NCBI GenBank assembly: GCA_003573975.1
Contig: AP018533.1
Coordinates: 3,162,319 to 3,226,318 of the forward strand
Direction: 5' to 3'
From: Clostridiales bacterium CCNA10
GTDB lineage: Bacteria > Bacillota > Clostridia > Oscillospirales > Oscillospiraceae
Length of the DNA stretch: 64,000 bases
In this document: positions 3,681-33,244 of the stretch, piece after piece
Position numbering within the stretch: position 1 is the stretch's first letter
How the letters are laid out: every line of letters starts with the position of its first letter
Notes under the pieces: model-generated
The model's input: only the letters and a program-made list of their open reading frames with translations
What the model was told of the DNA's origin: nothing
The model's database searches: none
Program-made: the position numbers and the translations under genes

Positions 3681-6600
3681 TCAATATCCGGTCTTCGGCA
3701 GCGGCGTGGTATTGAAGCGACGGACGGTAGTGACCCAGGTGGTCTTTGCCGTCTGCCACTCATTGAGATACTGGCCACCAACATCGGCACGATTGATGAT
3801 TTGGTAGCCATTGCTCACGATACCAAGCACCTGCACACGCATGGTAGGCTTCACAACAGAAGAGAAGCCGCTGGGCACCGTGCCAAACTCGAAGCGGACA
3901 TCGGTAACATACTCGCCCTGCACGAGCCGCAGCGTAGCGGCATTCAGGCTCAGGGAATAGTTGTTGGAGGTCAGCAGGTTACTGGCCAAAGTCCGGTAGT
4001 CATTGAGATTGGTCTTAAAGGTGACCTTATAGTACAGGCGCGCATTGTAGGTACCCGTGCTGATGCTGAGCGCACGCGTCGCATCCGTAGGAATGCGATC
4101 ATGCCAGAAGAAGTGGTTGAGCGCGACATTGGAGGTATTGGCAATACCGGAGAAGTCATAGCTCATGGCCTGACCGGACTGCACTTCATAGTTGCCGCTC
4201 TTCTTGATGGTCACGCCTAGGGCCGCGGGCTTATTGTAGGCGGAGAGTTTGATGATCTGACTGGGATACTCGATCTCAGCTTCCATCTTCTCGCCACTCA
4301 GCTGATAATACTTCGGTGCGGACACCTCCGTCACGAAGTAGCGGCCAAGAGGCAGGGGGCCAGAAGCGGCAACGCCACGCGCGTCTGTCACGATATAGCC
4401 AACAACCTTGCCAGAGCGGGCCTGCGTGATCTCAAACACAGCGCCTTCCAACGGGGTGCCAGCAAGCTGACCTGTGACGGTGTTGTCTTCCGAGCTATAC
4501 TTCCGGATCTGGATCTGACCCGTCACAGCACTATTCTCCCACTCGATCTGTGCGCATTTACCGCGTTCGACATAGACGGTCTTATACTGCTCATCGCGAA
4601 TATAGCCATCCGCCGCCTCCAGTTCACGCAGGTAGTACTTTCCGGGTACCAGCTCATCATCAATGTAGATGTAGCCGTCCTGATCCGTCGTGTATTCGCC
4701 GATCGGGTTCTTCCCAGAATCATAGAGTACGAACTTGACACCATAAATGCCTGCACCAGTCGCTGCATCGATCTTGTGAATCATGATAGAGGCCATGCGC
4801 TGGTTGGTGATCTCAACCGTCGTAGTCTCGCCATCCTTGACGCATGCATTGACGGGCGTAGTATCGAGTGCGTATCCGTCTTTCGCCTTGCGCTCAACGA
4901 TGGTATACCAGCCACTCTCTGCGTTGGGGATGCTGATGACGCCGTCGCGGTCGGTGGTATAGGTACCGAGGATTTCACCATTGATTTTGCGAATCTCGAA
5001 CTTGACGCCACCGAGCCGCTCTCCGGTGTCCGCATCGGACTTGATAATCTGCAGGCCGCCAGCAGGGACGTTATATACGATCAGAGTCTGAAGATCGTCG
5101 GGGTTAACAACGATGGTCTGGCTTCTTGTGGCTTCATCGATGGTGTAGCCAGGGATCGTTTTCACTTCCGTCACAACAAGTGTGCCGACAATATCTCTGA
5201 TGAGGATCTCGCCATTTGCGTCAGTCATATAAAGGCCGTTGGAAGAGAGCTTACCACCCTCATCTGCCACAAAGCTGCCGTCGCTATAGGTGATGCGGAA
5301 CTGAACCCCTTCCAGAGGCTTCTTCGTGACGCTATCAAGCTTAATGATTCGAAGCCCACCGAGCGGTTGGTTGCGAAATTCCAGCGTAATTATCTCGTTG
5401 GATTTGACCTTGACCGTCTGAGGAGTATCATCCAGCAGATAGCCATCCTTGGCGCGCGTTTCTTTGATGATAAGCGTCGTGCCAGGGGCAATGTCGGTAA
5501 TGGTGAAGGTACCAGCACTATCGGTAATGAACTTGCCATTGGCATTCCCAATGAAATTGCCGTCAGAATCGGTCACGAGGAACTCAACATCAGAGATTGG
5601 TTCATTCGTTGCGGCGTCCACCTTTTTCACCAAAACGCCACCCTTAGGCTGATTACGGAACTCCACCGTGATGACTTCGTTGGACTTAACCTTGACCGTC
5701 TGAGGGGTATCGTCCAGGATATAACCATCCTTGGCATGAGTTTCCTTGATGACGAGTGTGGTGTCGGGAGCAACATCCGTAATGGTAAAAGTACCTGCAC
5801 TGTCCGTCACATATTTGCCGTTGGCATTACCGATGAAGTTTCCATCGGAGTCGGTCACGAGGAACTCGACATCGGAGATCGGTTCATTTGTTACGGAGTC
5901 AACTTTTTTCACCAACACACCGCCCTTGGGTTGATTGCGGAACTCCAGCGTCATGACAGAGTTGCGCTTGATCTTGATGCTCTGCGGGGTATCGTCGAGG
6001 ATATAGCCATCCTTGGCGCGAACCTCTTTGGCAATGACCGTCATGCCAGGAGTCAGGCCATCAATGCGAATGGTACCGGCGCTGTCGGTCACATACTTAC
6101 CATTGGCAGTACCGATGACACTTCCGTCCGAGTCGGTCACAAGGAACTCGACATCGGAGATGGGCGCGCCGGTCACGGCGTCCTTTTTGACAATGAGCAA
6201 AGAACCCATCTTATCGTTGCCGAAAGTAACGGTGATGACATCCTGATCCTTACCGGAAAGATAGACCGTCTCCGTAGCGTCGGTGATGACATACCCATCC
6301 GGAGCCGAGATCTCCTCGCAGACGTAAGTGCCTGCCTTGAGGCCAGTCACGACGATGGTGCCATTACTAGAGGTACGGTACTCACCGATGACTGTCCCGC
6401 CCGTGCCAGAAGTACCGCCGAGATGACGGATACGGAACCATGCACCCTCCAGCGGCTGGCCTGTCTCACTATCCACCTTGCGAATGATGATGGCCGAAAG
6501 GGGCGTATTCTCAAAAGTCAGGACTTTGCTCTCACCGCCGGAAATAAAACATTCCTGTGTGGCAGGCTCCTTGATAGAGTAGCCTGGCGCCGGCTCCAGC

Positions 6601-8366
6601 TCCGTCACCTTGTACCAGCCGTCCTGGACTTCAGGGAGAATGATCTTGCCGCTCTCATCGGTGTAATGAACGCCGAGATCGTTCAGCTCTCCGGTATCAG
6701 TATGGTTGCTGGCATACCAGATCTGGAACTTGGCTCCCTTGACAGGATCGCCGGTGACGCTGTCTACTTTACGGATCTCCAGCGTCGGTTTGAGTGCGTT
6801 GAAGAATGTAACGGTGGAGGTTTCACCGGCTTTCAGCGACACTTCTTGTGGAATGGGGCAGAGAATGACATGGCTGGGGACATTGATCTCCGTCACCCTA
6901 TAGGTGCCAACGGGAATAGAATCAAGGAAAATGCGTCCGTGACTGTCGGTCGTGGCTGTGGTGGAGAAGCTACCGTCAATCTGCTCGATGCGGTAGGTCA
7001 CACCCTCGAGAGGCTCCCCATTGGCAATGTTCTTCTTGATGACCTCAAGGCCCGGCTTTTCGTAGTCCACAAAAGTGACTTCGCTCGTCTGGCCGGGGCG
7101 CAGTGCCACGGTCTGCTCCGTATTGCTTACGATGTACGGCTCCGGGACAGATTCTTCCCGCACCACATAGACATCAGCGGGGATGGACGAGAGGGTGGCG
7201 GAACCGTCCGTGCCGGTAGTAACGGACGTGGAGAAGTTGCCCGTAACAGACTTAATGGAAAATACTGTGCCGGCAATGGGCTTGCCACTCATCGCATCGC
7301 GCTTGATGATCTTCATGTCGGGCAGCTTGTGGTTTTCGGCGGTCACGGTGTACTGCTTGTCACCATCGGTCGTGTCAACATAGACGCTGTGGGAAGTGGG
7401 GGCCAGGGCGTAGCCCTCCGGGGCCTCCACCTCCACGAACGTCCATAAGCCCTTGGTGACATCCTTGACCTCAATGATGCCACCATTACGAGTTACATCG
7501 CTGCCGACGATCTGACCGTCGCGGTAAATATTGAATTTCGCGCCATCCAGACCACGGGTCGTTCCTGCGGCTACCTTTTTCAAAGTAATGTCGGCATCAC
7601 CGGCAGGCGGTTGATCCGGTTCATCGCCAGGAGTGTTGGTGACGAGTTTCCTCGGCGCGTAGTAATTAAAGAAAGACTGACGGCCCTTGACACTGGACTT
7701 CGCATAGACCGCCCATTTGGCAGCATCATCTTCGACAACGGTAGCGACGATGCCCTGAGCAGCGTATTCTTCGATCTGCTTCTGGAATTCTGCGTCTTCC
7801 TTGGCCTTCTGTGCCAGCATCCAATCGATGTAGCCCAAGTAGGTCTCATAGGTATCCGCATTGGCAAAGCCTCCGGCATCGATATCGCCGTCACCCTCAC
7901 CCTTGAAGGTCTGGTAATCCCACACATACGTCTGCGCGGCCATAAAGAGGCTGCCGGGGATATCACCCTTATAGTCCACGATGAATGTCATCATCCACTT
8001 GAAGTTTTCAAGCTGCTGGGCGTCGAGTTCACCCATGCCGCTCTGCGCCAGCGCCGTCTTCAAGACAGTATCCGCATCCGCGCCTGTCGCAGAGGTATAG
8101 GTGTAGCTGTTCAAGAAACTTGCGGTACCCCAGCGATAGCCGTAGCCACGATCAAGGCAGTACAGCAGCTTGCCTGCGGCCATGGGAGGCTTATAGCTGT
8201 AGGGAGTGCCGTCATGGAGAAGCCGCGTTGTCCAATAATTCGTGTTGCTGGTGGGTTTAATGCCTGTTCCCGTACTGGTCGCAGCGAATGCTGTGGTTGG
8301 AAACAGGCTGAGAATTGTCATAATCAGCAAGAATGCTGAGACAAGTCTGGTTTTGATTGATTTCAT
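3681..8366 (-). CDS. Thioester-domain and SpaA-repeat surface adhesin with terminal LPKTG
   Basis: A 1,561-residue exported protein. Residues 1-28 form a signal peptide ending A-F-A-A. Residues 40-240 look like a thioester adhesion domain: C70 in L-L-Y-C-L-D and Q145 in A-A-Q-T-Y-V-W are the pair expected to form the Cys-Gln bond. From about 258 to 1385 there are twelve prealbumin/SpaA-type modules of about 90-100 residues, most starting with K-x-D and ending near an E-x-x-A-x-x-G-Y segment, as in isopeptide-stabilised stalks. A distinct beta domain of about 170 residues follows, and the protein ends T-T-P-L-P-K-T-G-Y-stop. LPKTG is a sortase signal, but no hydrophobic anchor or positive tail follows. 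The sortase gene lies 1.2 kb upstream in the same direction. Likely role: host or mating-cell attachment. Confidence 0.85.
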   Translation of the reverse strand: MKSIKTRLVSAFLLIMTILSLFPTTAFAATSTGTGIKPTSNTNYWTTRLLHDGTPYSYKPPMAAGKLLYCLDRGYGYRWGTASFLNSYTYTSATGADADTVLKTALAQSGMGELDAQQLENFKWMMTFIVDYKGDIPGSLFMAAQTYVWDYQTFKGEGDGDIDAGGFANADTYETYLGYIDWMLAQKAKEDAEFQKQIEEYAAQGIVATVVEDDAAKWAVYAKSSVKGRQSFFNYYAPRKLVTNTPGDEPDQPPAGDADITLKKVAAGTTRGLDGAKFNIYRDGQIVGSDVTRNGGIIEVKDVTKGLWTFVEVEAPEGYALAPTSHSVYVDTTDGDKQYTVTAENHKLPDMKIIKRDAMSGKPIAGTVFSIKSVTGNFSTSVTTGTDGSATLSSIPADVYVVREESVPEPYIVSNTEQTVALRPGQTSEVTFVDYEKPGLEVIKKNIANGEPLEGVTYRIEQIDGSFSTTATTDSHGRIFLDSIPVGTYRVTEINVPSHVILCPIPQEVSLKAGETSTVTFFNALKPTLEIRKVDSVTGDPVKGAKFQIWYASNHTDTGELNDLGVHYTDESGKIILPEVQDGWYKVTELEPAPGYSIKEPATQECFISGGESKVLTFENTPLSAIIIRKVDSETGQPLEGAWFRIRHLGGTSGTGGTVIGEYRTSSNGTIVVTGLKAGTYVCEEISAPDGYVITDATETVYLSGKDQDVITVTFGNDKMGSLLIVKKDAVTGAPISDVEFLVTDSDGSVIGTANGKYVTDSAGTIRIDGLTPGMTVIAKEVRAKDGYILDDTPQSIKIKRNSVMTLEFRNQPKGGVLVKKVDSVTNEPISDVEFLVTDSDGNFIGNANGKYVTDSAGTFTITDVAPDTTLVIKETHAKDGYILDDTPQTVKVKSNEVITVEFRNQPKGGVLVKKVDAATNEPISDVEFLVTDSDGNFIGNANGKFITDSAGTFTITDIAPGTTLIIKETRAKDGYLLDDTPQTVKVKSNEIITLEFRNQPLGGLRIIKLDSVTKKPLEGVQFRITYSDGSFVADEGGKLSSNGLYMTDANGEILIRDIVGTLVVTEVKTIPGYTIDEATRSQTIVVNPDDLQTLIVYNVPAGGLQIIKSDADTGERLGGVKFEIRKINGEILGTYTTDRDGVISIPNAESGWYTIVERKAKDGYALDTTPVNACVKDGETTTVEITNQRMASIMIHKIDAATGAGIYGVKFVLYDSGKNPIGEYTTDQDGYIYIDDELVPGKYYLRELEAADGYIRDEQYKTVYVERGKCAQIEWENSAVTGQIQIRKYSSEDNTVTGQLAGTPLEGAVFEITQARSGKVVGYIVTDARGVAASGPLPLGRYFVTEVSAPKYYQLSGEKMEAEIEYPSQIIKLSAYNKPAALGVTIKKSGNYEVQSGQAMSYDFSGIANTSNVALNHFFWHDRIPTDATRALSISTGTYNARLYYKVTFKTNLNDYRTLASNLLTSNNYSLSLNAATLRLVQGEYVTDVRFEFGTVPSGFSSVVKPTMRVQVLGIVSNGYQIINRADVGGQYLNEWQTAKTTWVTTVRRFNTTPLPKTGY

Positions 8367-9533: not shown

Positions 9534-10319
9534 TTATCGAATCTCTACAGCCTGCACACACAGACGCAGAGAGGGCTGGTTAGCAATACAGGTGATCAGG
9601 GTGATGCGATTATCTCCCATCTCATTGAGGTAAGAGAAATCGGTGTAGGAGATCGCACCAACGAAGGTCACTTTGTAGGTCTTCGTGCCGATTGCGGTCT
9701 TGTACTTAACAATGTCCCCAACCTTCACATTCTTCAGCTTTCCGAAGTATGGATGATTCCCTCTGTTGTGGCCGAACAAGCCAACATTCCCGGTGTAGAG
9801 GCCGGAAGAAGTGTAATGACCGGCGCCTTTGGACATGGAACTGTCGGTGGCGCCTTCATACACTTTGCAATTCAGCCCGACACGTTCAATGGAGACTTGG
9901 CCGATACTGCCATCGCTCTGCTTGAGATCGTTCAAGGTGACAGAGGGTTCATACGGCATCTCGATCGTACCACCGCCGGAGATGATGCTGGAACTACCGA
10001 AGTCGGACTCCGGGTACTGCGTATTCGAGCTGCTCCCGCCAAAGCCGTACTGTGTGTTGCCATTCAGGTAGGGATTATTGAGGGAGCTTTCCAGGAATTC
10101 CTGACTGAGTCCGTATTGGATCTCAGGGATGTCGTAATCGATCTGATTGCGTGAGCCGTAACGATACTCAGCGTCGTAGAGATCCTCGTAGTTCGTGCTG
10201 CCGTAATAGACAGGGTCAGGAGAGGTTTTGAAGGAATAGTCTGCGGCACTAGCGAAAGTCACCATGCCGAGTGCCATACTCAGCGCACAGCACAGGGTCA
10301 AAAGTCGATTGAGCTTCAT
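9534..10319 (-). CDS. Sortase, class B/D-like
   Basis: A 261-residue exported transpeptidase. The signal sequence occupies residues 1-27. The sortase beta-barrel spans about 120-261, with H184 in G-L-F-G-H-N-R-G, C244 in T-L-I-T-C and R252 in S-L-R-L forming the catalytic triad. Sortases cleave LPxTG-type signals and join the protein to the wall or to pilin subunits, and the adhesin encoded nearby carries LPKTG. ATG 10319 follows GAGGAGGAACC and begins one base after the stop of the upstream gene, so the two are translationally coupled. The subclass is inferred from length and the TLxTC motif. Confidence 0.85.
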   Translation of the reverse strand: MKLNRLLTLCCALSMALGMVTFASAADYSFKTSPDPVYYGSTNYEDLYDAEYRYGSRNQIDYDIPEIQYGLSQEFLESSLNNPYLNGNTQYGFGGSSSNTQYPESDFGSSSIISGGGTIEMPYEPSVTLNDLKQSDGSIGQVSIERVGLNCKVYEGATDSSMSKGAGHYTSSGLYTGNVGLFGHNRGNHPYFGKLKNVKVGDIVKYKTAIGTKTYKVTFVGAISYTDFSYLNEMGDNRITLITCIANQPSLRLCVQAVEIR

Positions 10320-12940: not shown

Positions 12941-14872
12941 CTAGAAGAGTTCATCCGCATTCACGACCTTGCGAGTTGTGCTGCGTGGTGGCTTCCCAGG
13001 TGGTTTCTTCTGGGAACCAACATTAGCTTTTTCTGCTGGTATGGCCGCGGTTACGGATGGTGAAGATACACCGCTGGCAGATACAGAGGAAGCCTGACTG
13101 TTTTTCCAGTCAGGCTCGTGTAAGATTGCCTTGCGGCTCTTCAGTTTTTTATAGTCCGGATGCAGGGAGTAGTCAAAGCGCTTAGCTCGCATGACTTTCT
13201 GACCTCTTATGAAAATCAGGACCTGATCCGGGGGTAAACGCAAGACCTCATCAGGGGTAAGCAATGGGCGCCGGCCAAGTGAGTTGGTCTTACGGAATCT
13301 TGGGGTATAATCGGTAATGTGCATGGTGTTGAGTTCCCGCATCGTACCTTCCACTTCGACTGATGCTGTTCCAATGCGGTCGCTGAAGTACTCAGCGGTC
13401 AGCATATCTGTGCATCCGAGAAAAACCGTGCTGTCACAGGCACCGAGGATCTCTTGCCATTGATCATCTGGGTATCGGTTGCGCATCTGGCCGACATTTT
13501 GGAAAAAGACGGCAACGGAGCAACCTCTTGAACGGATGGTAGAGCATTTTTTAGTGAAATCGGGGATAAGGCAGCAGTTGGGAAACTCATCAAGGATGAA
13601 TTTTACCTTTGGGTGCAGCATCCCGCCCTCACAGTAAGCATCGGCATAGCGGATCAGACGAATGAACAGGAAGCTAAAAAACAAGGAGCTGAGGAAATCA
13701 TAAGTGCTATCCTGATCGGAGACGATGCAGAAATATGCGCACTTTTGTTTACCGGGCAGCTCCAGGTCGATCTCATTGTAGGAGGTGATATTCCGCACCT
13801 GCTGGGCTTGCAGAACTGCCAGCTTGCTTCCGAGGCCGATGATAACACTCGTGCGAACGGTTTCGCTCGATTGCCTGAAGATTGCGTAGGGCGCAGATGC
13901 AGGTGATGGAGGAAGCAGCTCTCCCGTATATTGGTTCGCGTGCTCGTGGCTAATGCTGGCCATCATATCAGATAAGCCCTTTTCGGTTTGAGTATAGAGA
14001 AGGTCATACACCGTCGCGATGTTCCGCTTTTCCGGAGGCATCTCCAACGCAACATAGAGAACAAGCGCTTTTAGAAGGTTGAGTTCTGCGTTGTACCAGA
14101 ACGCGTCTTTCGAATCACCGCTAGTGTTCTGGAGTACAATGTCGGCAAAGGTCTGGGCCATGAGCTCACTTGATCCGACTTCACCAAGACAGTTCCAGGA
14201 GTCGCTATGATCCATTTCAACAAGGTTGAAGACTTTGACAATATATCCGTTCTCACGGAGATACTCGCCCATGGATTCATATAGTTCGGATTTTGGATCA
14301 GTCAGGATCACGCTCTCACCACGCTTGACCGCTTGCAAAACGAGGTTTCGTGAGATGGCTCTGGATTTTCCCGTACCGGAAGATCCGCATACGGCAAGAT
14401 TTGCGTTGAGACGGGTATCCTTTGGAAGCGTCAGGACTTGACCATCCGGGAGCATCCCAAGGATGTCTTGGCTGGTCCTTTTTGCACTCGTCACCTCAAA
14501 GCATGCAGATGCCTCTTTGGGTGACATGAAGCTTGCCGTTCCGTAGCTTCCAGAATTCGATACGGTCAGATTGCGATCAGAGTCTGTCACACCATTTTGG
14601 CCCCATCCAATTCGGAGTCCAAATACACAGAGTACGGCAATGCCAAGGACTACAACCCCAATGGCAATGAGTCCTTCTGGAAAGTGAAACAGCGCTCGAA
14701 CCACTTCGCTGATCTGCGAGGATGGAAGCCCTGGCGAAGTACGATAGTCACTACCCGCCGCTTTCCAAGCATTGATGTTAATAATGAATTGCGCAATGAT
14801 ACCAGCAGCGTAAAGCACGCAAGGAATCAGGACGGCAAGGCTAAGTGCTATTTTCAGTTTTCTTTTATCCAT
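12941..14872 (-). CDS. virD4: VirD4/TraG-type conjugative coupling ATPase
   Basis: A 643-residue type IV secretion coupling protein, which brings the relaxase-DNA complex to the mating channel. Two N-terminal membrane segments (about 8-33 and 67-90) precede an ATPase domain with Walker A G-S-S-G-T-G-K-S (163-170) and Walker B F-I-L-D-E-F (425-430). A T-D-P-K-S-E-L-Y segment follows Walker A, as is usual in the family. The C-terminal 60 residues are basic, Pro/Ser-rich and probably disordered. The start overlaps the upstream gene by eight bases with only a weak ribosome-binding site, which indicates translational coupling. Confidence 0.92.
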   Translation of the reverse strand: MDKRKLKIALSLAVLIPCVLYAAGIIAQFIININAWKAAGSDYRTSPGLPSSQISEVVRALFHFPEGLIAIGVVVLGIAVLCVFGLRIGWGQNGVTDSDRNLTVSNSGSYGTASFMSPKEASACFEVTSAKRTSQDILGMLPDGQVLTLPKDTRLNANLAVCGSSGTGKSRAISRNLVLQAVKRGESVILTDPKSELYESMGEYLRENGYIVKVFNLVEMDHSDSWNCLGEVGSSELMAQTFADIVLQNTSGDSKDAFWYNAELNLLKALVLYVALEMPPEKRNIATVYDLLYTQTEKGLSDMMASISHEHANQYTGELLPPSPASAPYAIFRQSSETVRTSVIIGLGSKLAVLQAQQVRNITSYNEIDLELPGKQKCAYFCIVSDQDSTYDFLSSLFFSFLFIRLIRYADAYCEGGMLHPKVKFILDEFPNCCLIPDFTKKCSTIRSRGCSVAVFFQNVGQMRNRYPDDQWQEILGACDSTVFLGCTDMLTAEYFSDRIGTASVEVEGTMRELNTMHITDYTPRFRKTNSLGRRPLLTPDEVLRLPPDQVLIFIRGQKVMRAKRFDYSLHPDYKKLKSRKAILHEPDWKNSQASSVSASGVSSPSVTAAIPAEKANVGSQKKPPGKPPRSTTRKVVNADELF

Positions 14873-15983
14873 AATCTAATCTGCTTTCTAACGGACGTAC
14901 CTCAATGGCCGGCCCCACAATTCTCTGGATAACCTGCGTCTGATAGTCTAAACAGAGCATGATCGGGCTACCTCGAAAACCTTCCGGCATCGGGTGGATA
15001 TCCGATAGCATGAGTAGGTCACATTGGTAGTTCAAAAGAACAGGCCTGTCGAGCGAGGTCTCGATTGCGTCATATTCGCGGGTAGGGATTCGTGGTGGGT
15101 GGAAAGGTGATAATGCGGCACGATTGATTTCCATCGCCAGTTCATCGTGGAGAATGAGCTTCAGGAGAGTGTCACCTTCCTTGTTATTGGTAAGGAACAG
15201 ACATTGAGCAAAGAAAGTCGAAACGACGAAGTACTTGTTCCCAAATGGCTTTGCTCCATGACAGAGGCGCTGTGCCACACTCATGGTGGATCCGATGACG
15301 ATCTGGTGGATTGACGTGATACCGAAACCTCTTGCGAGCAGAAGGCTTTTCACAGCGGCAGCATAGTTCTCCTCGCTATTCTTCATCCAGTACATTCTTG
15401 TGCTACCTGTGAAGTAAAGAAAGAAGCAACACCGCCCTTTGACGATAATACCGATCGTGCGTGAGCTCTTGGATACTGACTCCGGGGAGTACTCCTCGAT
15501 GGCGACACGCAACTCGTGTGCGGCGTAGTAATAGATTTTGTTGGGATCCGGCACGACCGCATTCGTTGCTCTTTTGGCAGGCGACATGAGAGATGGCTTT
15601 TGAGAGATGAGGAGCATCGCTCCGGCCGCGTTAGACATAACCGTACCAATAGCAATTGCGTGAAGCCGCAGGATTTTGTCGATCCAACCAGGGTAAATGC
15701 GCTCAGAGCTATTGACTCTTGAATAGATCATGGACACCGCTTCCGGATCCCTCTGTGCAACATACTCGAAACCCTTCTGCGTCAAGCTCATTGAACGAAT
15801 CACATGGCGCTTATGCTTCTTCCGATATAGCCGCACATAGCCTTCCCGAATCGCACGATACATGACCCTGCGATTCCATTCAGCGCCGCCACCGATCCGC
15901 ACCGCCAGCTGCGTCGGAAACTCGATACAATATCCAACAAACCAGAGCAATTCGAGTAAGCGATCATTCTTACATGTAATCAT
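14865..15983 (-). CDS. Winged-helix replication-relaxation-like ICE protein
   Basis: A 372-residue protein starting MITCKNDRLLELLWFVGYC behind GGAGTG; the in-frame TTG at 15998 lacks a ribosome-binding site. The N-terminal 90 residues look like a winged helix-turn-helix (R-R-V-M-Y-R-A-I-R-E-G-Y then L-T-Q-K-G-F-E-Y-V), resembling replication-relaxation proteins found next to VirD4 in Gram-positive ICEs. The rest is unassigned. It overlaps virD4 by eight bases. Likely DNA-processing accessory; moderate certainty. Confidence 0.65.
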   Translation of the reverse strand: MITCKNDRLLELLWFVGYCIEFPTQLAVRIGGGAEWNRRVMYRAIREGYVRLYRKKHKRHVIRSMSLTQKGFEYVAQRDPEAVSMIYSRVNSSERIYPGWIDKILRLHAIAIGTVMSNAAGAMLLISQKPSLMSPAKRATNAVVPDPNKIYYYAAHELRVAIEEYSPESVSKSSRTIGIIVKGRCCFFLYFTGSTRMYWMKNSEENYAAAVKSLLLARGFGITSIHQIVIGSTMSVAQRLCHGAKPFGNKYFVVSTFFAQCLFLTNNKEGDTLLKLILHDELAMEINRAALSPFHPPRIPTREYDAIETSLDRPVLLNYQCDLLMLSDIHPMPEGFRGSPIMLCLDYQTQVIQRIVGPAIEVRPLESRLDYG

Positions 15984-17481: not shown

Positions 17482-20424
17482 TCATTCGACAACATTATGT
17501 GTATTTTGGGCGATCTTTTCCTTGAGAATCTGGTTGAGTTCCATGCGGTCGGTTGTAATCAGCTGTTTCTCCAAGGGGGATGCCTTGAACGAAACTGTGA
17601 TGTGGTTGGAGTTTGTGGAGATCAGTCCTTGGCCGCGTTCAAAACGAGTGATCGACATGATCTCTGCATCAGATAAGTGGAGAATGTGCTGGACGCGCTG
17701 CGCCTCATCATTTTCCAAGTTCAAAATGATTTTGGTCTTTGCAACATTTAAGATACCTTTGCCGAACCGGCTTCGATCAAGGTCGCCAATATCCTGGGTG
17801 GCAGCAATGGCCGCACCGCCGTAGCCACGAATGATCTTGAAAATCTCTTGAACCCACTCGCCTGCAAGGGCCTTGGTGTTGTTTGGGTTATTGGTATCAT
17901 CGTCTCCAATAAGTTCCCATGCTTCATCAATGAAGATCGCCTTTTCTTTTGTGCGGTCTTCTTTGGCTTTATCCCAGACGTAGTCGAGTGCGACAAACAT
18001 ACCTACAGGCAGAAGCTCGCCCGTTAACTCGGAAATATCAAGGACTGTGTAGAGATTGTCGAGCTGCACATTCGTGTGCTGATTGAAGGTTTTGGCGGAT
18101 CCATTCACGAGACGGTTCAGAATATTGCCCATCCGCCTCGTCTCAGGAGATTCCATTAGAATCTCATAGATGTCACCAAGGAGCGGCATCTCTCGGTAGC
18201 GATCCGGATGCTCTGGATCAATCAGCGACTCGTTGTTGTGCGTGATCCCTTTCTTCGCATAGGTTCGAATCAGTGCTTCGTCAAGGAGCTGTCGTTCTTC
18301 ATGACTGATATCTGGAATTAGCAGCGAGAAGAAAATGTGCAGCTGCTGAATCTTTTTTGCCAAGATCGAGTTCTCACTAACTACGCCGTCGATCAACTGA
18401 TTGGCGCTGAGATCCTGCTTGCGGATCTCGCAGACATTGATACATTGTTTCGATGCCGGACTGATGGAAATGAACTCACCGCCAATGTTATTACAGGCTC
18501 TCAGAAACTCATGGCCTTTGAGAGGTGCTATGATGAAGACCTGGGTACCTTTCCGACGCATGCGGAGAGCTATCAACTGGAGCGTAAAGGTTTTGCCGGC
18601 ACCGCTGGTTCCCAGAAGAACCATATTGGCGTTTTTATATACGCGGCTATTGAAGATATCAACTATGACCAAGCTGTTGTTATGCTGGTTGACTCCGAGC
18701 AGGATGCCGTTCTCATCACTCATCTCAAACGAGGTGAAAGGATAACAACTGGCAGCCGCAGAGGTAAGCATATTTCGCTTGCTCGCCTCAAAGAGCTTTT
18801 TATTCAAGCTACAAAGCGGGAGGATCGACAGTAGCGCTTGCTCCTGACGAAATCGGCAAATCCGGATATCCATATCCTGTGAAACCATCAGCCGACGCAC
18901 CTCAGATATACGCCACTCCAGATTTTCGAGTGTATCTGCAGTGATTGTGACTAGTGTGTTGCAATAGTAGAAATCCTCGTAATTTGCAAGGCCTTCTTTC
19001 AGGAAGTAGCCAGAACGGATTGCGCTTTCGAAATCATCAAAGTCCGAATTGGTATCCGAGGTGTCTTTCAAACGACTGCGGTTGATTCGGATCTGTTGAC
19101 CCAGCTTAGCCTGAATGCGTTCTTTTGGCTCGCGGGAAAAATAGAAATCGACATCGATCCCTTCGCCAGCATTGACGAGAATACTTGTCCAACCGGCAAC
19201 AACGCGAGGATTATACCCATCAGAGGGAACTATGAGATATGCATGGTATACTCCGTCCATTACTACATATGACCCATGAGTCAAGTCAATGGAATCGGGG
19301 GCAAATACACTTTTAAGAGAGACTGGCATAGTGATGTCGGCATCCCTTCGTGCTGACTGGAGCTCCCGAATGCGCTGCTCAACTGTTTTTACCTCACAAG
19401 TTGATCGGTTGAAAATGGTGTAGAGGATCTCCAACAGGAAGGCGTTTTCGTCATCATGGGTAACAACCGCATTGTCGCAGTGTAGGAAATACTGCCGCGC
19501 TGTCTGAACAGCCGTTTCCAGAGCCGAGACAATCTCCGAGTACTCCGGTTTGCGATTCGTGACAGCTTCATACTCAAAAATCACAAGGAATCTGCGGGTA
19601 ATTGCTTCTCGCGAGCCAATTGTCTGGATAAGGCGATAGTAGTCCAGCTGCAATTCTCGGCACTTTGGATTACTCTCGGACTCCATATCCCGCTCGATGG
19701 TATTGAGGTGCTTTCCGATGTCGGCCTTCTTTGTCAACACTTTGATTTGGATTTTTATTGGGGAAATCTTCATCCAGCTCGCGAAGCTGGCAACGATATT
19801 CTTCTGCTCAGATGTACTGCGTAAAAGAAAGTTGATCGGTTCAACTTCGAGGACTCTGATGTAACGGCCGTCCTCCGTTTCAATAATGCCGTTGCGGATA
19901 TCCTTTACTGGAACAAAGTCTTCCGAGTAAGTCACCTGCTTTTTGTGACTTGGCACCATCTTGCGATTATTTTTGTTGAGCTGCTTTTCGGTTTTTGTAG
20001 GGCGTTTTCGTTTCTTGCGAGGCTGCTTGATCCGAATGCCTAACTCTTCGGGCGGCTTGGTAGCTTCTTGCTCCCATATCCTCTTTTTCTGCTTCCTAGC
20101 GGTTTCAGGTATAGTGACATCAGAGCGATAAAGGCTCCGCCGATGAATGAACCAGCGAACCCAATTGATCGCAAATTCCGAAAGTGAATCGCCCTCAAAA
20201 CCGATGATGCCAAAAATACCAAGCGGGAGTGGGAGCAGGCAAAGAATGATAATCCGCACAGTAAGCGACATAGGCAACTTGATGATGGGAATACCCGTCA
20301 ACAAAACGAGCACGCAAGCTTCAATCGCATTGCGTGCTCGAATCATTCCGCCAAATAAGCGCCCACTTGCAAGAAAGTTTGGCGGGATATAGTAAATATC
20401 CCGTTCTTCGTTCGGTTTGCTCAT
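17482..20424 (-). CDS. virB4: PrgI-VirB4 fusion: type IV secretion ATPase
   Basis: A 980-residue protein. Residues 1-110 resemble PrgI/VirB3 membrane subunits, with Y-Y-I-P-P-N near the start and two membrane segments (about 35-50 and 54-76). A basic linker (110-165) leads to a VirB4 ATPase with Walker A G-T-S-G-A-G-K-T (605-612) and Walker B F-I-D-E-A-W (831-836). VirB4 powers assembly of the mating channel, and PrgI is normally a separate small gene. The start follows AGAGGCA, 20 bases after the C39-peptidase gene. The fusion is read directly from one uninterrupted frame. Confidence 0.9.
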   Translation of the reverse strand: MSKPNEERDIYYIPPNFLASGRLFGGMIRARNAIEACVLVLLTGIPIIKLPMSLTVRIIILCLLPLPLGIFGIIGFEGDSLSEFAINWVRWFIHRRSLYRSDVTIPETARKQKKRIWEQEATKPPEELGIRIKQPRKKRKRPTKTEKQLNKNNRKMVPSHKKQVTYSEDFVPVKDIRNGIIETEDGRYIRVLEVEPINFLLRSTSEQKNIVASFASWMKISPIKIQIKVLTKKADIGKHLNTIERDMESESNPKCRELQLDYYRLIQTIGSREAITRRFLVIFEYEAVTNRKPEYSEIVSALETAVQTARQYFLHCDNAVVTHDDENAFLLEILYTIFNRSTCEVKTVEQRIRELQSARRDADITMPVSLKSVFAPDSIDLTHGSYVVMDGVYHAYLIVPSDGYNPRVVAGWTSILVNAGEGIDVDFYFSREPKERIQAKLGQQIRINRSRLKDTSDTNSDFDDFESAIRSGYFLKEGLANYEDFYYCNTLVTITADTLENLEWRISEVRRLMVSQDMDIRICRFRQEQALLSILPLCSLNKKLFEASKRNMLTSAAASCYPFTSFEMSDENGILLGVNQHNNSLVIVDIFNSRVYKNANMVLLGTSGAGKTFTLQLIALRMRRKGTQVFIIAPLKGHEFLRACNNIGGEFISISPASKQCINVCEIRKQDLSANQLIDGVVSENSILAKKIQQLHIFFSLLIPDISHEERQLLDEALIRTYAKKGITHNNESLIDPEHPDRYREMPLLGDIYEILMESPETRRMGNILNRLVNGSAKTFNQHTNVQLDNLYTVLDISELTGELLPVGMFVALDYVWDKAKEDRTKEKAIFIDEAWELIGDDDTNNPNNTKALAGEWVQEIFKIIRGYGGAAIAATQDIGDLDRSRFGKGILNVAKTKIILNLENDEAQRVQHILHLSDAEIMSITRFERGQGLISTNSNHITVSFKASPLEKQLITTDRMELNQILKEKIAQNTHNVVE

Positions 20425-20444: not shown

Positions 20445-21788
20445 TCAGTTTCCGATGATCCAAAACGGCCCACCGGATCCAGCGCGCTTACTAGCTTCGT
20501 TGAGGATAATGGACATATCCCAACTCTTCTCAGAGCGCTTATAACTGGAAGGATCTGCGACGAGTATCTTCCCATCGGATGTGCAGCCTCTCAGGACAAT
20601 GAAATGGCCACTCGATGTAAAATGGCCTTTCGTCATGAGTGCAACGACTAACTTGCCCTCCGCAAGCGCGTCAATGATACGCTGTGGTTCAGAAGCTGTG
20701 CAGCCATCGACACTCAGGCTCCACGCTTGCGCTGCTCCTGGTATCAAAGAACGATAAGAACCATTGCCGCTGCACCAGTACCCGTGCTCGTATGCCCATT
20801 GTGCCATATGAGGTGGATCAATGGTTTCTGAGGTAAGACTGGATATCACTATGGCCATTGCAGTCGGGCCGCAGGCATAACCACCAATCGTATCTGTACC
20901 ATAGGGCGAGTACTTCCACCGTTCATCTAACTGATTGTAATAGACAACCTGTGTTTCGCCGTCAGCAAAAACGACCCCGTCGTAGGATAGGTCCATTGCT
21001 GAGAACTCTGTTTCACTTAGACCTTGGTAAATTCCATCGCCCAAGAGGACAGTCAAGTTTTGCGCATATTGGCTTGCAAGGAGTTTCTGATCGTCTGACA
21101 GGTGGAAGACCTGATCGGCAAAATACGCTTCTCCATTATAGGAGATGGTATAGATCCGAATGGTCTCATGAATGGTTTCGCCCGAGTCTTCGTCACCTTG
21201 CTCAGGGGGAATTTCTCGCTCTTCATCCGTGAAAGCAAAAGAGTAGAGCTTATCCTTGTTAGCGGTGAGCAAAGCCTCCATATCTTCCTTGGAAATAGAT
21301 GCAATTTCTGTGTCCTTGTGTGCGCAATACTGGGAAACAAACGCATTTGCATTAAACACCACATCAGCGCCAAAGGGATTGTTGATCTCTTTTCCATCAC
21401 AGCCGGACGATGCAAAATCAGAATCAATGCGTTCAAGAACATCCGTTAATCCTTCAGAGAGGATGGAACTGATGCCCTCGTTGATGGCTGTCATATTCTG
21501 GACTAACACTTCATCGTTCGAGATTCCATTCGGGGAGTCCGTTCCATCGCCCAATAATGATCCGAAGATGATAGAAGGAAGCATAGCTACAAGAATTAGA
21601 GGCAACAAAACTGCCGCGATCAACGGAATCAGCCATTTCGCAGAAGACTTCCCTGCTTCAATTGCCGCACCATGAGCACCACCTGCAGCTGCGCCCTTGG
21701 CAATATTGGAAATTGCTTTGCCAGTCTTTGCGGCACCCGCAACTGTGGATTCGGTCGATGTTTGCTGCTGGCTTTTTTCATCACTCAT
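20445..21788 (-). CDS. Membrane-anchored C39-like peptidase (VirB1-like role)
   Basis: A 447-residue protein with a Thr/Ser/Gly/Ala-rich N-terminus, one membrane segment (52-78) and a long external part. The C-terminal domain (about 282-447) resembles C39 peptidases: C306 in G-G-Y-A-C-G-P-T-A, H395 in G-H-F-I-V-L-R-G and D412 in V-A-D-P-S-S form a plausible catalytic triad. Gram-positive conjugation systems usually use NlpC/P60 or lysozyme domains here to open the wall, so a C39-type fold in this position is uncommon. The start forms a TAATG overlap with the upstream gene. Confidence 0.8.
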   Translation of the reverse strand: MSDEKSQQQTSTESTVAGAAKTGKAISNIAKGAAAGGAHGAAIEAGKSSAKWLIPLIAAVLLPLILVAMLPSIIFGSLLGDGTDSPNGISNDEVLVQNMTAINEGISSILSEGLTDVLERIDSDFASSGCDGKEINNPFGADVVFNANAFVSQYCAHKDTEIASISKEDMEALLTANKDKLYSFAFTDEEREIPPEQGDEDSGETIHETIRIYTISYNGEAYFADQVFHLSDDQKLLASQYAQNLTVLLGDGIYQGLSETEFSAMDLSYDGVVFADGETQVVYYNQLDERWKYSPYGTDTIGGYACGPTAMAIVISSLTSETIDPPHMAQWAYEHGYWCSGNGSYRSLIPGAAQAWSLSVDGCTASEPQRIIDALAEGKLVVALMTKGHFTSSGHFIVLRGCTSDGKILVADPSSYKRSEKSWDMSIILNEASKRAGSGGPFWIIGN

Positions 21789-31230: not shown

Positions 31231-31422
31231 ATGCCGCTTCAAATCGTCAGAAATGACATCACAAAAATGAAGGTGGATGCTATCGTCAACGCTGCCAACG
31301 AGTCGCTGCTGGGTGGCGGCGGTGTGGACGGCTGCATTCATCGTGCCGCTGGATCGGAGCTGCTGGCAGAATATGAAACGCTCCATGGCTGCTTTGCAGA
31401 ACAGGAATTATCTTGTACTTGA
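31231..31422 (+). pseudogene. Truncated macro-domain protein
   Basis: The first about 55 residues match ADP-ribose-binding macro domains (O-acetyl-ADP-ribose deacetylase type): [20 protein letters not shown] then I-H-R-A-A-G. Full-length members have about 170 residues; here homology stops near 31390 and the frame ends after 64 codons. The second ligand loop and the rest of the fold are gone, so it is probably non-functional. The break marks a deletion or recombination junction. Confidence 0.75.
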
Positions 31423-32306: not shown

Positions 32307-32828
32307 CTATTTGAAGTACTTCTCCCAAGTGGATTTGAAAAGTTGTTTTCTGTTCTGCTCCCATTGTTTGAGGTTGCAAAGGCTGATGCCTAGCCTATCA
32401 GCATACTCTCTTTGCGTTAGGCCAAGCTTCATTCGAATTGCCTTGATCTGCTTACCCTGGCCGTTTCTCAGAAAGAGATTGTAGTCATCCAGAAGTCTTT
32501 CGACTGGAACCTCGAAAAGCTGCGCGATTTTCTCCATGTGCTTCGGAGAGTAAAAGTCCTTTCCATATTCTTCATAATGAATATAAGTACTTCGGTATAT
32601 ACCGGCGTAGTCAGCTACGTCTCTCTGCCGCAAGCCTTTCTGGTATCGAAGCCAGCGGAGCTTGTCCGCTGTTTCAGTGATTTCGGAGAAGTCCGAGAAC
32701 TGCAGATTGAACTTTTCAGCATCCTGAAACTTGTGCGGCAGTATCACCGGAAATTGAAGAATTTGTAGCGGGGCTACTTTTACTGAACCTGATATATTGG
32801 AAATCAGAATGTAGCAGCGGACTTCCAC
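32307..32828 (-). CDS. Double helix-turn-helix (XRE-type) regulator at the ICE end
   Basis: A 173-residue protein with two HTH units. The first (about 60-110) reads L-R-Q-R-D-V-A-D-Y-A-G-I-Y-R-S-T-Y-I-H-Y-E; the second (about 128-165) reads L-T-Q-R-E-Y-A-D-R-L-G-I-S-L-C-N-L-K-Q-W-E. The first 45 residues are hydrophobic/mixed and unassigned. The start is a GTG with only a weak ribosome-binding site, so a later start is possible. It is the last ICE gene before the sigK junction, where immunity or excision regulators often lie. Confidence 0.75.
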   Translation of the reverse strand: MEVRCYILISNISGSVKVAPLQILQFPVILPHKFQDAEKFNLQFSDFSEITETADKLRWLRYQKGLRQRDVADYAGIYRSTYIHYEEYGKDFYSPKHMEKIAQLFEVPVERLLDDYNLFLRNGQGKQIKAIRMKLGLTQREYADRLGISLCNLKQWEQNRKQLFKSTWEKYFK

Positions 32829-32896
32829 TTGCGCCAGCAGGCGCCATTTTGCACCAAAAGGTGCCTGTTTTGCTACTTCATCCTTCGATAGTTCCG

Positions 32897-33244
32897 CTAT
32901 GTTAGGATAGTATTTTCAATGCACCGGCTGGCGTAGGTCGCCAGGCGCACATTTTTATCCGCCTTGAACGTAGAGATCCCTTTGATCAGGCCGATGGTCC
33001 CAATGGAGATCAGGTCATCCTGATCCCCGGTCTGGGCGTAGTACTTTTTCACAATGTGGGCCACCAGCCGCAGGTTGTGCTCCACCAGAACATTCCGGGC
33101 CTCCAGGTCGCCCGCCGCGCACCGCTCCAGATACCGCTTCTCCTCCTCCGGCTTCAGCGGACGCGGGAAGGAGCCCCCGCCTCCTGACAGCCGCAGTGTA
33201 AAAAATAAACTGTGCAGCATCAGATAGATCACTGGAGAAAACAT
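32897..33244 (-). pseudogene. sigK: N-terminal half of sigK, interrupted by the ICE
   Basis: The 115-codon frame starts MFSPVIYLMLHSLFFTLRL, a hydrophobic pro-sequence typical of pro-sigma-K, then follows sigma-K through R-L-V-A-H-I-V-K-K, D-L-I-S-I-G-T-I-G-L-I-K-G-I and L-A-T-Y-A-S-R-C-I-E-N (residue 111). The family continues E-I-L-M-H at this point; here four foreign codons and a stop follow. Region 2.4 onward, including promoter recognition, is missing. ATG 33244 follows AGGAGGTGTCATATC. The C-terminal half must lie left of the window. Excision of the element could rebuild the gene, as known for the Bacillus skin element. Confidence 0.9.

Follow-up and report, generated by a model that had tools for sequence, protein, structure and literature searches.

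The first 32,911 nucleotides of the window (the whole 64,000-nucleotide stretch of DNA that was analysed) are the right end of a 139,743-bp element inserted in the sporulation gene sigK. It is a precisely placed skin-type element, unusual in size and content. Our main reading, to which we give a probability of roughly 80%, is that in the sporulating mother cell the element is precisely excised by its own recombinase, rebuilding sigK and releasing a circle, with a directionality factor as the trigger and an HTH tail of the recombinase as the regulatory half in the free circle.

The minus-strand frame at 32897..33244 reads MFSPVIYLMLHSLFFTLRL...RCIEN-TILT-stop and matches Sigma70_r2 at 54.2 bits. 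Its codons 1-111 (32912..33244, minus strand), which comprise the pro-sequence and sigma region 2 and end in RCIEN, can be aligned to the intact sigK of relatives, with divergence beginning after AAT; TILT and the stop (32897..32911, minus strand) come from the edge of the element, translated in the sigK frame. The alignment thus agrees with the original prediction of a clean N-terminal sigma-K half running to RCIEN and followed by four foreign codons and a stop. The profile TIGR02846 (spore_sigmaK) is matched over its positions 4-125 by C1:3195191-3195553 (150.6 bits), and a search of the whole genome with the same profile found a C-half match at C1:3055148-3055495, on the same strand as the N half. 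This 3′ half (C1:3055124-3055486, minus strand), which lies beyond the window, is the partner of 32912..33244; the two are 139,743 bp apart on the same strand of the same single 3,558,314-bp contig and, when joined in silico, give an intact 231-aa sigma-K in frame. Because junction reading puts the crossover after AAT, between 32911 and 32912 of the window, the element is C1:3055487-3195229. Within the window, GC content is 0.46-0.55 in the element part, against about 0.6 in the chromosomal flank.

An insertion of this kind might have permanently broken sigK and left the strain unable to complete sporulation, as would fit our failure to find any other full-length sigK in the whole genome by the TIGR02846 search. 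The strongest other sigma match, at C1:2001523, is read as sigE because the preceding ORF resembles SpoIIGA by eye; SpoIVA is encoded in the genome as well (705 bits). We nevertheless consider permanent breakage very improbable, since both halves are open and joinable to 231 aa, the junction matches those of many relatives, and each half has a dN/dS of 0.03-0.19 against eight intact relatives (0.03-0.17 for intact-intact pairs), ratios of which only the low level is informative as synonymous sites are near saturation. By this measure both halves are under purifying selection. The failure to find a second full-length sigK and the presence of an intact C half also bear out the original prediction that a skin-type element interrupts sigK at a fixed codon, which is codon 111 and recurs as the same junction in relatives.

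That prediction further placed a recombinase with the C half at the far end, and a large serine recombinase does directly adjoin it. The gene (C1:3055485-3057200) is read in the sigK direction and encodes 571 aa with the three expected domains by domain scan. Its stop codon straddles the crossover, taking T from the element side and GA from sigK. An alignment of eight recombinases served to scan contigs for relatives; 443 turned up, and 80 loci were kept, under names that include Oscillospiraceae, Lacrimispora, other clostridia and Sporomusa ovata. The C-side sigK junction was located in 69 of the 80. In all but three of these 69, which break the rule, the recombinase frame reaches the crossover uninterrupted and in one common phase; of these 66 frames, 50 end on the sigK TGA and 16 read CGA. 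Members of this recombinase family occupy the same codon of sigK in dozens of other genomes. At one locus (L133, a record for Faecalibacterium prausnitzii APC923/61-1) it adjoins a sigK-like C half of 43% identity.

Joining the element ends would yield an inverted repeat, GGATAG-CGAATA-CTATCC, which is the predicted attP, with arms GGATAG/CTATCC and a shared core AAT(G). In the genus, C-side junctions read ...TAGC(A/G)AA(T/C) followed across the crossover by GA (seven C sides, this genome among them), and N-side junctions read ...GA(A/G)AAT followed by (A/G)C (six N sides, again including this genome). The attP was not seen in viral contigs or in 400 family assemblies, where the pattern had two matches, both in unrelated genes. 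Integrase and attachment sites, as expected of an integrative and conjugative element, are both present.

The predicted attP lies inside one open frame, and integration splits this frame between the two ends of the element. At the right end an XRE-type HTH frame (32307..32911, minus strand) is open for 200 codons from the crossover and shares its phase with the recombinase frame of the opposite end; since the attachment site falls within one continuous frame, joining the ends fuses the recombinase in frame with the HTH, giving a predicted protein of 772 aa. The two frames are in phase in all four elements for which both ends were read (G000, G004, G009 and G059). Among ten N sides examined, the HTH frame is open for at least 55 codons from the crossover in seven; in G059 it stops at 59, and in G040 and G044 the contig ends within it. 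Three N sides (L109, L171 and L190) lack a long HTH frame, so not every element has the HTH.

Fused genes of this kind also occur naturally. With the joined 772-aa sequence as query, 7,924 of 7,999 scored candidates matched, and among the best 120 matches 20 cover both the recombinase and the HTH parts. The best of these (P0232 and P0233, from public assemblies) are 772 aa long and 99% identical over 100% of the length; others (P0234 and P0237-P0240) sit on contigs of up to 63-133 kb. A natural fusion is expected from an excised circle or from the inner junction of two tandem elements. Two fusions (P0251 and P0255) pair a divergent recombinase (64% and 56%, respectively) with a 99% HTH, which favours tandem elements or exchange in at least some cases. 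Three HTH homologues (P0115, P0125 and P0129) are joined at the same point to other N-terminal extensions, which on their sequence suggest HTH junctions with further genes; the start of P0125 resembles the element gene g011 (C1:3060029-3060853), which may point to secondary sites or to nested elements. Some other N-terminally extended HTH homologues are, by eye, sigK read in another frame.

Because the attachment site is inside this continuous frame, integration would leave a shortened recombinase that lacks the HTH and borrows the end of its stop codon from sigK, while the HTH frame would be stranded downstream of the sigK 5′ half with no good start codon. Excision would then restore both genes, sigK and the recombinase-HTH gene, at once. 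Our favoured mechanism is that the HTH tail is the regulatory half of the element, active in the free circle through control of the recombinase or its promoter. In the mother cell a directionality factor would trigger excision, the candidates being the product of an excisionase-like gene and the HTH protein, the latter expressed from the sigK promoter. The excisionase-like gene adjoins the recombinase gene (phrog_4691, 59.9 bits); it and the XRE-type HTH protein may be directionality factors and are treated here as candidates only. The split gene offers a concrete switch between chromosomal and free states that is open to testing.

A stronger form of the second option holds that the HTH protein is itself the directionality factor: transcribed from the sigK promoter in the mother cell and translated downstream of the 5′ half, it would make sigK expression the trigger for the repair of sigK. 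The HTH frame does lie directly downstream of the 5′ half on the same strand, and homologues occupy the same place in five other loci (G004, G009, G059, G040 and L172). Between G000 and G004 the HTH itself has pS 0.44 and pN 0.04, indicating purifying selection, and is therefore probably made in some state. The 27-codon linker from crossover to HTH shows no such selection between the two (pS 0.18, pN 0.24), which counts against our main reading. We think this form unlikely all the same. The first ATG, GTG or TTG in the frame is a GTG at 32828, and no start codon with a ribosome-binding-site match was found in the first 75 HTH-frame codons of any of seven N sides. An excisionase-like gene is at hand beside the recombinase, and three N sides do without the HTH. 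The best PDB matches of the HTH model are, moreover, XRE-type regulators, namely C.BclI (best E 6.8e-4), SinR and P22 c2. A PDB entry, 9dxd, contains a chain named YokA with SP-beta YotN protein, apparently a serine integrase joined to a partner. We take YokA and YotN to be SprA and SprB. SprB is described in the available text of two reports as a directionality factor (PMC5025042, PMC6957869).

Transfer genes ride in the element as predicted, with VirD4- and VirB4-type ATPases inside its limits. The VirD4-type coupling ATPase (12941..14872, minus strand) matches Pfam T4SS-DNA_transf and NCBIfam conju_CD1115 (409.7 bits; cut-off 250). It is adjoined by a conserved protein (14865..15983, minus strand; 110 homologues) for which a model (pLDDT 87.5) and fold searches predict an N-terminal winged helix and a further alpha/beta part. 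The VirB4-type ATPase (17482..20424, minus strand) matches Pfam P-loop_TraG, and NCBIfam conju_CD1110 at 245.1 bits, below the cut-off of 325; next comes a C39-type peptidase protein of the transfer block (20445..21788, minus strand; Pfam). Pfam also identifies a 1561-aa surface protein with 12 SpaA-type domain matches (3681..8366, minus strand) and a sortase (9534..10319, minus strand). Our own script predicted 164 genes in the element, of which 86 were scanned with Pfam. No relaxase was named among these 86, and PF03432 has 11 places in the genome, none inside the element. The original prediction had spoken of an apparently complete conjugation machine; the transfer ATPases are there, but with no recognised relaxase completeness is not supported. 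Transfer of the circle would rely on the VirD4/VirB4 block and on a relaxase that either went unrecognised or is supplied by another element. A second VirB4-type gene (53% identity) lies outside the element at C1:1118735-1121179, and with it and the 11 PF03432 places the genome holds transfer genes elsewhere that could help in trans.

Capsid, tail and packaging genes were not named among the 86 genes scanned with Pfam or 10 scanned with PHROGs. The element also encodes an actin-like protein, a CHC2 zinc-finger protein, a RecD2 helicase, a YqaJ-type recombinase and an SSB, which together with its transfer, surface and restriction genes read to us as a plasmid-like set. The restriction block (C1:3112783-3123679) has HsdS-, HsdM- and HsdR- (type I) and GmrSD-type genes, among which lies a tyrosine integrase. 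A cargo gene left of the window (C1:3092644-3093633) belongs to the choloylglycine (bile-salt) hydrolase family (PF02275, 339.6 bits). Macro-domain-like genes at window 31231-31422, near the right end of the element, and at C1:3156283-3157278 share a protein start; the Macro domain was confirmed for the latter.

Oscillibacter valericigenes An907 (G312), a member of another genus, has a recombinase with 100% identity to the one here, and the element DNA there is 92-97% identical over the matched segments. The sigK C half beside that identical recombinase has 64% identity to one query, vs 77% here, and the combination of identical recombinase and diverged sigK is best read, as far as sequence comparison goes, as recent transfer between genera. 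The VirD4/VirB4 stretch had no match in the Oscillibacter element (a draft of about 120 contigs); as it is absent from the matched segments, the transfer block is not a fixed part of the element family. Two smaller elements (G004, about 15 kb, and G269, about 16 kb) share little but the ends with the 140-kb element. Because the interiors of all three differ from it, the transfer genes seem to be cargo carried by a shared sigK-targeting chassis.

These comparisons bring close to an even chance the possibility that a smaller skin element occupies sigK and that a separate conjugative or plasmid-like block is later cargo, unlinked to sigK, that moves (if at all) alone. The ends match those of the other three elements, whose interiors differ; the matched segments of the Oscillibacter element lack the block. 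A search of 400 family genomes found VirB4 relatives in 33, and the genome with the closest of them (G270, 88%) has an uninterrupted sigK match. Recombinases other than the 571-aa one lie inside the element and may leave room for nesting. No second pair of element ends was identified around the block, however, and a single pair of sigK junctions bounds the full 139.7 kb; excision as in our main reading would therefore carry the transfer block whatever its history.

Elements described in sigK, in the available text of the reports cited below, are prophages, prophage-like elements or small islands. The skin element of Bacillus subtilis (48 kb, prophage-like) splits sigK and is removed by a serine recombinase, with mother-cell excision proven (PMC6957869, PMC10745906). 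The element here is like it in the split sigK, the element-borne serine recombinase and the short core, and its excision in the mother cell would be analogous; it differs in size and content (140 kb with transfer ATPases). The recombinase of skin is beside the 5′ half in the opposite direction, whereas here it is behind the 3′ half in the sigK direction. The directionality factor of skin, Skr (64 aa), is encoded by a gene overlapping that of the recombinase; no such ORF is conserved in the eight loci examined here. The skin-Cd element of Clostridioides difficile (14.6 kb, prophage-like; PMC10745906) likewise has its own large serine recombinase, CD1231, and a directionality factor, CD1234, needed for excision only, and its orientation is described as opposite to that of B. 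subtilis skin (PMC5025042). The available part of that report mentions no split recombinase-HTH gene such as is found here. By comparison, sigK here holds an element about ten times the size of skin-Cd, with transfer ATPases and a recombinase identical in another genus.

A non-phage element can also split a sporulation gene in gin, which is 28.6 kb long and is excised by a serine recombinase and a helper (PMC5595907); gin is in gerE of Bacillus cereus, while the present element is in sigK. Insertions in the sigma-K gene of the Bacillus cereus group and Alicyclobacillus include a 105-kb phage; they are presented, in the portions available, as one insertion per gene with phage or island content, and transfer genes go unmentioned there (PMC10745906, PMC13141910). 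Since those of the B. cereus group are at positions 195 and 423 (PMC10745906), several sigK insertion sites are known across species. The nearest parallel to the split frame is the integration-dependent immunity of mycobacteriophage BPs, in which attP is inside a coding gene and integration shortens the C-terminus of the protein (PMC4557955, as far as its text was available). BPs splits its repressor, whereas the gene split here encodes a recombinase whose tail is a repressor-like HTH, and what the reciprocal recombination yields is a sporulation sigma factor of the host. In the titles and abstract starts searched, where coverage is thin for subscription papers, we found no report of a conjugative element in sigK or of a recombinase-HTH gene split by integration.

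Across the genus sigK is a frequent landing pad. In 64 genomes (this one included) the sigK match was uninterrupted in 25, interrupted in 30 and undetected in nine; these are mostly drafts, and while some of the junctions were read directly, several genomes were assigned from match ends alone. Three sites are used: site A at codon 111 (11 genomes), site B at about codon 66 (14 genomes) and site C at about codon 212 (11 genomes). Among the stretches fetched, a g029-like recombinase is near the site B junction in seven of nine genomes and a g043-like recombinase is near site C in six of six. The tail beyond site C is on the same contig and strand in five of 11 genomes, on another contig in three, and was not found in three (G026, G052 and G060). 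Six genomes use two sites, leaving sigK in three pieces. Two of them, G008 and G050, have sites B and C occupied, in each case on a single contig; the other four (G031, G049, G043 and G063) have A and B, with site A in the last two placed by the match end and their C half not found. We met no report of two insertions in one sigK, or of several sites within one genus, in the literature searched, parts of which were available only as extracts.

From this survey and the split frame a broader picture can be drawn, which we offer tentatively and lean somewhat against: that one recombination toggles both sigK and a recombinase-repressor gene, that a plasmid-like conjugative element docks in sigK, is freed in the mother cell and is found free in nature with the long recombinase, and that sigK is a three-slot pad that can hold two elements. 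The surveyed genomes form a natural series for asking whether sigK insertions are parasites of sporulation or timers for it. In one of them (G032) the sigK parts, at C8:45285-45797 and 111974-112183, are in the order opposite to that of a simple insertion, which may reflect misassembly or rearrangement.
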